Assembly: GCA_035533755.1 (NCBI GenBank) | Contig: DATLTC010000031.1 | Span: 1-52,297, forward strand | Length of the DNA: 52,297 bases | Direction: 5' to 3' | From: Gemmatimonadaceae bacterium | GTDB taxonomy: Bacteria; Gemmatimonadota; Gemmatimonadetes; Gemmatimonadales; Gemmatimonadaceae | In this document: piece by piece, positions 1-2,440 of the stretch | Layout: each line of letters opens with the position of its first letter | Position numbering within the stretch: position 1 is the first letter of the stretch | Notes under the pieces: model-generated | Database searches by the model: none | The model's input: only the letters and a program-made list of their open reading frames with translations | Told to the model about the DNA's origin: nothing | Made by a program: the position numbers and the translations under genes

Positions 1-2
1 GG

Positions 3-797
3 GGCAAACCCACGGCGTGCGTGTCGTGTCACCAGGCGGACTACGCGAAGACGTCGAGCCCGCCCCACGCCGCGGCGGGATTCCCGACCACGTGCGAGAC
101 GTGCCACAGCACCGCCAACTGGACGAGCGCGACGTTCGACCACAACGCCACCAAGTTCCCGCTCACGGGCGCGCATCTGGCGGTGGCCTGCAACGCGTGC
201 CACGGCGACGGCGTGTACGCTGGCAAGCCGACCGCGTGCGTGTCGTGTCACCAGGCGGACTACGCGAAGACGTCGAGTCCGCCCCACGCCGCGGCGGGGT
301 TCCCGACGACGTGCGAGCTCTGCCACAGCACCACCAACTGGACGAGCGCGACGTTCGACCACAACGCCACCAAGTTCCCGCTCACGGGGGCGCACGTGAC
401 TCTGGCCTGCAATGCCTGCCATGGCGATGGCGTGTACGCCGGCAAGCCGACCGCCTGCGTGTCGTGTCACCTCACGGACTACAACGGCACGAACAATCCG
501 GCGCATGCCGCGGCGGGCTTTCCGCAGACGTGCGATCAGTGCCACACGACGACGACCTGGTCCGGCGCCACGTTCAACCACGACGGCTCGTTCTTCCCGA
601 TCTATTCGGGAACGCACCAGAACCGATGGACGCAATGCGCGGACTGTCATACGTCGCCGACCAACTTCGCCGTGTTCACCTGCACCGGCGCGTGCCATGC
701 GCAGGCGACCACCGATTCGCACCATAGCGGCGTGTCCGGATACCGGTACGAGAGCAACGCCTGCTACGCGTGCCACCCGAGGGGGCAGGGCGGATGA
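3..797 (+). CDS. Multihaem c-type cytochrome, 5' end cut by window edge
   Basis: The frame is open to the left edge, so the N-terminus and any signal peptide are missing; the GTG at 21 lies inside the first haem motif and is not a start. The visible 264 residues hold ten CXXCH motifs (CVSCH, CETCH, CNACH and variants) plus one CX3CH (CTGACH), so about eleven covalently bound haems are predicted. Many additional histidines could be distal ligands. Two 73-residue units are nearly identical (5 differences by eye) and are followed by a diverged third. Such repeat cytochromes are periplasmic or outer-membrane electron carriers. The stop overlaps the start of the next gene (ATGA at 794-797), so the two are translationally coupled. 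That neighbour encodes an outer-membrane barrel, which suggests electron transfer across the outer membrane; this role is inference. Confidence 0.9.
   Translation, partial: GKPTACVSCHQADYAKTSSPPHAAAGFPTTCETCHSTANWTSATFDHNATKFPLTGAHLAVACNACHGDGVYAGKPTACVSCHQADYAKTSSPPHAAAGFPTTCELCHSTTNWTSATFDHNATKFPLTGAHVTLACNACHGDGVYAGKPTACVSCHLTDYNGTNNPAHAAAGFPQTCDQCHTTTTWSGATFNHDGSFFPIYSGTHQNRWTQCADCHTSPTNFAVFTCTGACHAQATTDSHHSGVSGYRYESNACYACHPRGQGG
18..455 (+). repeat. Two tandem 219-bp coding repeats in the cytochrome gene
   Basis: Unit 1 spans 18-236 and unit 2 spans 237-455; a diverged third unit begins at 456. I count about 19 base differences between units 1 and 2, mostly silent. Each unit encodes three CXXCH haem motifs in 73 residues. 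The array runs to the left edge, so more copies may lie outside the window. Confidence 0.95.
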
Positions 798-2440
798 GTC
801 GCGTGCGCGGCGCAGCGCGCTGGCCGGGCCTGGGCGCCATCCTCGCCGGATGGCTCGGGCTCTGGAGCGGCGCACTCTCCGCCCAGGCCACGGGGGCGGC
901 GCATCCGGGCGCCGCGCCCCCGCGGTGGGCGCACGTGAGCTACATCAGCGGACCGTCCGTGTACATCGACGCGGGCGCCAGGGACGGCTTGCGGCAGGGC
1001 AGCCGCCTCGACGTGGTGCGCGATACGGTGGTCATCGCCGAGCTGGCGGTGGAATACATCTCTTCGAGCAGCGCGGCGTGCACGATCGTGCGCAGCAGCG
1101 GGCCGCCTATCGCCGTGGGCGACTCGGTGCGGTTCACGCCGGTGCCGGTGCCGGCGCCGCCGGCCGCGGCCGCGCCGGCCTCGCCGCTCGCCGCCGCGTC
1201 CGCGCGCCCGTGGAGCGCCGGCAACGCGCTGCGCGGCCGCATCGGCGTGCGGTATCTGGTCGTGGATGCGGGTACCGGACCGGCCGGGATGATGACGCAG
1301 CCCGCGTTCGACGTGCGGCTCGACGGCATGCATCTGTCCGGCTCGTCGCTCGGGCTCGCCGTGGACGTCCGCGCGCAGCGGTCGATCCTCCCGCCGCCGG
1401 ACAGCACGCACCCGGCGCCGACGTACCCGCTCAACGTCACGCACGTGTACAAGGCGGCGCTGATCTGGAACCCCGCCGGGTCGCCGGCCACGGCCACCGT
1501 CGGGCGGCAGTTCTCGTCCAGCAGCTCGTCGGTGGGCCTGTTCGACGGCGTCGGTCTGGACTACGCTCGACGCCGGTGGAGCGTCGGCGCGTTCGGCGGA
1601 TTCGAGCCGAGCGTAGCGACGTTCGGCTTCTCCGATTCGACGCGCGAGTACGGCGCGTACGTGCAGTGGCACAACGCGTCGCTCGCGCTCCCGGTGTGGT
1701 CGCTGACCCTGGGCGGCGTGGGCGCGTACACCATGGGGCAGATCGACCGCGAATTCAGCTATCTGTCGGCCATGTATGCCGGCCCGCGGTTGACGCTCTA
1801 CGCCACGCAGGAGCTGGACATCAACCGCGGATGGCGGGCCGTGCAGGAACATTCCACGACGACGCCCACGGCCACATTCGCCACCGCCCAGTACGCCGTG
1901 ACCGACGCGGTGAGCCTGTACGGAGGCGTGGACAACCGCCGCAACGTTCGCCTCTATACCGACTATCTGAATCCCGAGGCGGCGTTCGACGCCAGCTTCC
2001 GGCAGGGCGTGTGGGCGGGCGCGTCGCTCAACATGCGCGGCCGATTCCGGGTGAGCGCCGACGAACGCACCTCGAGCGGAGGATTGGCGGGCACGGCGCA
2101 GTCGTACACCGGCGCGGCGAGTGTCATGCGCTTGACCCCGCTGCAACTCGGCGTCCATCTGCGCGCCACGCGCTACACGGGCCAGATGTCGAGCGGCACG
2201 CTGCAGTCGGCATCGGCCGAAGCGAACCCGTTCGATCTGGTGCACCTGGAACTCACCGGGGGCGTGCGCACGTCGGTCACGCCGATCATGGGCCCGGGCG
2301 CGTCGCGCGTGAATTGGGGCAGCTTCGACGCGGACTGGGGCATCGGCCCGTCGATCTACCTGTTGTTCTCGCTCTATCGGGAGTCGGGGCCCGGCCTGCA
2401 CGACGGGCAGAGCTACCTGTCGATCAGCTACCGGTTCTGA
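794..2440 (+). CDS. Outer-membrane beta-barrel protein, possible partner of the multihaem cytochrome
   Basis: A 548-residue protein. The ATG at 794 is chosen because it overlaps the cytochrome stop by 4 nt and follows a GGGGGCAGGGCGG stretch. The N-terminus is a signal peptide ending near LSAQA. Residues of about 40-115 form a small beta domain resembling FlgT-C/SH3-like folds (a VYIDAGARDGLRQGSRLDV stretch). A Pro/Ala linker follows, then about 400 residues of alternating aromatic and polar strands. The last residue is Phe (SISYRF), the classic signal for outer-membrane barrel assembly. Family knowledge: porin-cytochrome conduits pair a barrel with a multihaem cytochrome. The pairing here rests on adjacency and overlap only; a structural barrel unrelated to electron transfer is possible. 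Its 3' end overlaps the convergent glycosyltransferase gene by 13 bp. Confidence 0.8.
   Translation: MSRVRGAARWPGLGAILAGWLGLWSGALSAQATGAAHPGAAPPRWAHVSYISGPSVYIDAGARDGLRQGSRLDVVRDTVVIAELAVEYISSSSAACTIVRSSGPPIAVGDSVRFTPVPVPAPPAAAAPASPLAAASARPWSAGNALRGRIGVRYLVVDAGTGPAGMMTQPAFDVRLDGMHLSGSSLGLAVDVRAQRSILPPPDSTHPAPTYPLNVTHVYKAALIWNPAGSPATATVGRQFSSSSSSVGLFDGVGLDYARRRWSVGAFGGFEPSVATFGFSDSTREYGAYVQWHNASLALPVWSLTLGGVGAYTMGQIDREFSYLSAMYAGPRLTLYATQELDINRGWRAVQEHSTTTPTATFATAQYAVTDAVSLYGGVDNRRNVRLYTDYLNPEAAFDASFRQGVWAGASLNMRGRFRVSADERTSSGGLAGTAQSYTGAASVMRLTPLQLGVHLRATRYTGQMSSGTLQSASAEANPFDLVHLELTGGVRTSVTPIMGPGASRVNWGSFDADWGIGPSIYLLFSLYRESGPGLHDGQSYLSISYRF

Follow-up and report, generated by a model that had tools for sequence, protein, structure and literature searches.

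The cytochrome and barrel genes at the contig edge

The window, i.e., the whole stretch of 52,297 nt analysed here, starts with the first base of contig C31 in a 3.25 Mb genome of 103 contigs. The first gene on the forward strand (positions 1 to 797, in frame 3-797) is the 3′ part of a repeat multihaem c-type cytochrome gene. Its reading frame is open on the contig start side and the first stop is the TGA at 795-797. The initial annotation described a cytochrome with eleven haems or more. Eleven haem motifs are present in 3-797, 10 CXXCH and one CX3CH (CTGACH), but the product is only a C-terminal fragment cut at the contig edge. The fragment matches Cytochrome_C7 in Pfam (1.1e-12). Tandem Repeats Finder reported a 219-bp period (73 aa, three haems) across 3-585, and three tandem tri-haem units of this length were delimited over 3-659 (3-221, 222-440 and 441-659, forward strand). 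The first two units are 90% identical to each other and the diverged last unit shares 58-61% identity with both. A C-terminal haem cap occupies 600-797 (forward strand; FPIYSG.H...W..C..CH ... C.ACH ... CYACHPRG), and its sequence is conserved over four phyla. Elsewhere in the 52,297-nt window, no further CXXCH-rich frame was picked out.

The second gene (794-2440, forward strand) encodes an outer-membrane barrel protein of 548 aa that has no Pfam or NCBIfam family name. The only Pfam similarity is a weak, sub-threshold one to FlgT_C in the N-terminal domain. Three features noted at the outset, a 4-nt overlap, an exported product and a terminal Phe, are all found: the ATG at 794 shares ATGA with the cytochrome stop, a signal peptide is predicted from the sequence at 794-889 on the forward strand (MSRVRGAARWPGLGAILAGWLGLWSGALSAQA, cleavage near SAQA), and the C-terminus reads ...YLSISYRF. 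An AlphaFold2 model was built from a 40-sequence input (mean pLDDT 81, barrel domain mostly 80-95). The proposed SH3-like domain appears in the model as a small N-terminal beta domain of six strands (residues 44-114; 923-1135, forward strand), followed by a disordered Pro/Ala linker and a 22-strand beta-barrel domain ending in SYRF (residues 147-547; 1232-2434, forward strand).

The MtrB barrel has 26 strands. By geometry calculation, the ideal backbone diameter is about 40 Å at 22 strands versus 47 Å at 26. A 22-strand barrel is in the size class of TonB receptors, which hold a folded plug; with 22 modelled strands and an ideal diameter of about 40 Å, the earlier concern that the barrel might be too narrow for haem domains was not substantiated. 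Structural matches of the barrel are 22-strand TonB receptors and OprD/AlgE porins. MtrB is absent among the matches listed in the fold comparison, which is uninformative on the relation between the two. A PDB sequence search with the barrel found no relative. The MtrB_PioB profile (PF11854) matches none of the 40 barrel family members and does match a control in the same genome, in agreement with the initial view that the barrel is unlike MtrB. Contig C42 carries this control, a true MtrAB pair (L088 5087-8264; decahaem DmsE 5.7e-74, MtrB_PioB 2.5e-84). Since the pair was detected, the method recognises the MtrB/PioB family when it is present. The DmsE/MtrA decahaem profile gives 23.2 bits for the window cytochrome against a cut-off of 192.2, and 248.8 bits for the C42 control.

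The probable upstream genes on contig C64

The repeat of the window cytochrome recurs at the extreme right end of contig C64 (locus L004). Four genes lie there on a common strand: a membrane protein gene (L004 4775-5881), a flavoprotein gene (L004 5891-7321), a cytochrome gene with 23 CXXCH (L004 7322-9331) and, running up to the C64 end, the opening half of a repeat cytochrome gene, which encodes a signal peptide of its own and 12 CXXCH. No lipobox was seen in this signal. Because the genes are contiguous in relatives, C64 and C31 very probably adjoin each other, with the break falling in the repeats. Unit A of C64 and unit x of C31, on the two sides of the break, are 94% identical, and B (C64) and z (C31) are 93% identical. 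The ends of the two contigs share no identical overlap (6-7% difference in the units). On C64 the A-type unit is followed directly by the last-type unit, whereas C31 has x, y and z. These differences would be accounted for by two alleles or by strains that vary in unit number. The joined cytochrome would have at least 19 haems, a figure kept conditional because units A and B of C64 differ by 6-7% from those of C31. The repeat cytochrome of a same-genus genome (G001) has 16 haems. If the two contigs join, the leftward extension proposed in the initial annotation brings in more cytochrome, the 23-haem gene and the start of the repeat cytochrome, by way of C64 and not on C31 itself.

Two WX3HX13H motifs and SGXXG are present in all complete homologues of the membrane protein, and in an alignment of 20 sequences W123, H127, H141, W296, H300, H314 and SG..G are invariant. 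This inner-membrane protein, with its two HX13H pairs, probably holds two b haems. Pfam relates it only weakly to cytochrome b561, with hits in 6 of 20 members and a best E of 0.005. The flavoprotein contains 4Fe-4S sites, Pyr_redox and a YpdA/TrxR-like domain. By motif, it is predicted to be a cytoplasmic protein anchored to the membrane, with an NAD(P)/FAD domain and a pair of 4Fe-4S-type sites. The flavin part has no CXXC, and for this reason the protein is not a disulfide reductase by motif. Its second cluster motif (L004 5891-7321 and homologues) is usually CxGHGxCxxxCP, a conserved His replacing one Cys in most homologues. Together, the flavoprotein and the b-haem protein resemble a ferric reductase/NOX split in two.

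The second cytochrome mostly has 23 or 20 haems in relatives, and 17 in one distant genome. Matches to it on sphingomonad and Methylophaga plasmids were set aside as other clusters with no barrel listed. Reading of the five genes did not identify a lipoprotein or a clearly surface-exposed cytochrome.

Occurrence of the gene set and haem number

The barrel is present in 11 of 99 relatives. Scanning genome contigs yielded 39 named barrel loci, which belong to Gemmatimonadota, Acidobacteriota, Eisenbacteria and one unclassified bacterium. Four of them have the contig start inside the barrel, and L060, considered as a barrel without a cytochrome, was dropped for a 100-N scaffold gap immediately upstream of the barrel, which leaves 34 loci with readable upstream DNA. 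All 34 have a multihaem cytochrome immediately upstream; barrel homologues without a neighbouring cytochrome, which the initial annotation had named as evidence against a conduit, did not turn up in this search for the pair. These same five genes, in unchanged order, are found in genome G007 and at ten further loci (L044, L048, L053, L057, L063, L065, L069, L070, L071 and L075). At L062, L064 and L072, the other genes of the set are turned round and the adjacency is kept. In the DNA available around three Acidobacteriota loci (L058, L061 and L079), the cytochrome-barrel pair alone is seen.

In a search of 150 phylum genomes, the barrel and the membrane protein each have profile matches in 14, and 13 genomes have both (hypergeometric 1e-16, uncorrected for kinship). 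A same-genus genome (G002) has neither, and the distribution of the set is therefore patchy. All five genes are also found in a cultured member of the Bacteroidota, Emticicia oligotrophica DSM 17448, where they follow ccsA (cytochrome c maturation) on plasmid pEMTOL02. The profile matches there are 7e-43 for the barrel and 1e-38 for the membrane protein, and the two cytochromes have 23 and 40 haems. Two arrangements depart from the common one. L056 (4223-11602) has two tandem cytochrome-barrel pairs after one membrane protein and one 19-haem cytochrome. The cluster at L042 (genome G081) is more distant: its barrel is weakly related, its repeat cytochrome is a different one with 30 haems, and the flavoprotein directly follows the barrel.

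The repeat cytochromes have 10, 13, 16, 19, 22, 31, 34, 40 or 43 haems in total, i.e., 10+3n. The haem count is 1 mod 3 in 26 of 28 complete rows, which include a few duplicates and one fragment. Repeat units are 90-94% identical to each other within this genome and about 79% identical to the units of the sister species. As read from these identities, the units have been duplicated or homogenised recently. The repeat cytochrome is split in two frames, broken inside the repeats, at L094/L091 (genome G124) and at L072; these are probably assembly errors in the repeats.

Interpretation as a probable electron conduit

Porin-cytochrome gene clusters of the PCC3 type have been described and are functionally unverified. 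They were listed from Proteobacteria (Sideroxydans, Leptothrix and others), and the inner-membrane proteins of PCC3 and PCC4, with two WX3HX13H and SGXXG, were likened to ferric reductase and cytochrome b (He et al., 2017; PMC5566968). The present set shares with PCC3 a porin that adjoins a repeat-rich, many-haem cytochrome, a second cytochrome of about 21-24 haems (23 here) and an inner-membrane protein that carries SGXXG and the WX3HX13H motif twice. The repeat cytochrome of PCC3 is described as extracellular; the features seen in the present one are the repeats and the 10-43 haems. The set differs from PCC3 in its 22 predicted strands, against mostly more in PCC3, although the very large porin was described for "most" and is perhaps not strictly defining. 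It also differs in the extra FAD/4Fe-4S protein and in its hosts, which are Gemmatimonadota, Acidobacteriota, Eisenbacteria and Bacteroidota. We filed the set as a PCC3-like porin-cytochrome conduit, its barrel set apart from PCC3 porins by their description only. PCC4 has the same inner-membrane motifs and Fe-S redox proteins in the cluster, but three periplasmic cytochromes with 4, 5 and 10 haems in place of two with 23 and 10+3n.

Clusters of "group 1" in a 2026 ghost-rock survey pair a porin of some 20 strands with a large cytochrome, and 7 of 11 have a ferredoxin-NADP reductase gene nearby (PMC13264449). The large cytochrome was reported as decahaem (PMC13264449), whereas it is 10+3n here. 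Compared by description only, these clusters may be the same family as the present set. The Geobacter Ext and OmbB-OmaB-OmcB conduits, also compared by description, are similar in predicted barrel size (ExtB 18, ExtE 21) and multihaem cytochromes (PMC6148476), but mostly come with outer-membrane lipoprotein cytochromes, none of which was recognised on reading the present cluster. MtrAB, PioAB and MtoAB likewise pair a barrel with a multihaem cytochrome as an outer-membrane conduit; the present proteins belong to neither MtrB_PioB nor DmsE, and the barrel has 22 strands versus 26.

It was concluded that, with high probability, positions 1-2440 encode the part of a five-gene porin-cytochrome conduit that belongs to the outer membrane, the set lying partly on C64 (L004). 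We consider it very likely that the set conducts electrons across the outer membrane as a porin-cytochrome conduit and is PCC3-like, its barrel being smaller and a flavoprotein being added. The conduit reading suggested at the start is well supported by the pairing at 34 of 34 loci and by the 22-strand model. The suggestion of a new type holds in part: the barrel family and the flavoprotein make the set a variant, while the gene plan, haem numbers and membrane-protein motifs match PCC3.

This set and the MtrAB pair on C42 make at least two distinct kinds of conduit in the organism. The C42 pair adjoins cytochrome b/Rieske-type and CcmF/CcmG-like genes. Elsewhere in the genome, L085 and L086 (G000 contig C56:60000-90000) carry a dense block of multihaem cytochromes with 8, 8, 16, 11, 14, 21 and 9 haems, together with an exported protein that fits no family and a large subunit like that of a [NiFe]-hydrogenase, with maturation genes close by. 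L087 and L089 are two alternative-complex-III-like sets (pentahaem cytochrome, molybdopterin-like protein and membrane subunit).

Going by gene content and motifs, the five-gene set probably moves electrons between the cell inside and the surroundings. Its gene order, with C64 joined to C31, is inner-membrane b-haem protein, flavoprotein, 23-haem periplasmic cytochrome, repeat cytochrome (10+3n) and 22-strand barrel. Electrons would move along a chain with NAD(P)H or quinol at its inner end, next to which come the flavoprotein, the b haems and the 23-haem cytochrome. At the other end would be the repeat cytochrome, with one of its termini in or on the barrel and in contact with a donor or acceptor outside. 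The outside partner could be, e.g., iron, manganese, humics or a partner cell, and the flow could go in either direction. Because haem number varies fourfold (10-43) and barrel size is constant, the barrel can hold only a constant end of the wire. This end is probably the conserved C-terminal cap, which is encoded beside the barrel, and the repeats would set the reach of the wire. A bolder proposal, which we put forward tentatively and at rather less than even confidence, is that the set represents a separate NAD(P)H-linked conduit lineage spanning the whole envelope, with a split ferric-reductase-like module, a wire that grows in tri-haem steps and a constant 22-strand barrel unrelated to known conduit porins.

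The set could instead be a true PCC3 member as in Proteobacteria, not a variant, with all four parts homologous and electrons going to quinone. The inner-membrane motifs are the same as those published for PCC3, repeats occur in the PCC3 cytochrome as well, and the haem numbers fall among those reported for PCC3 (Sideroxydans CL21 has 24 plus 12 or 14; the 2017 medians are 21 and 34). We regard this as somewhat unlikely, as the descriptions of PCC3 give it a porin that is mostly very large, with up to 42 strands against 22 here, and four genes with no flavoprotein.

The other two alternatives concern the barrel itself. It may export or anchor the repeat cytochrome as an extracellular wire or filament that is not fixed in the pore. 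The longest cytochromes (40-43 haems) would exceed what the pore needs and perhaps the periplasm, the 22-strand barrel is large, usher pores are among its Foldseek matches, and no lipoprotein for carrying electrons outside was recognised in the set. The usher matches are generic, however, with about 10% identity and low TM, short cytochrome forms of 10-13 haems exist, and no secretion partner genes were seen at the loci; this alternative is unlikely. That the barrel is an ordinary solute porin, paired with the cytochrome by an accident of gene order, would suit a fold like that of general porins (OprD, AlgE) and TonB receptors. It is highly improbable given the adjacency at all readable loci, in three phyla of the named collection plus Bacteroidota, the rearranged clusters that remain together and the near-perfect co-occurrence with the membrane protein.

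A PCC3-like conduit with its own barrel and flavoprotein would provide a complete envelope-spanning electron path in Gemmatimonadota, Acidobacteriota and Eisenbacteria, where conduits are little described. Emticicia oligotrophica is a cultured carrier with the set on a plasmid and is open to experiment. The repeat cytochromes form a natural length series, from 10 to 43 haems by threes, which could be used to ask what sets the limit on electron transfer in haem wires and how wires of varied length are gripped by a barrel whose size stays the same.
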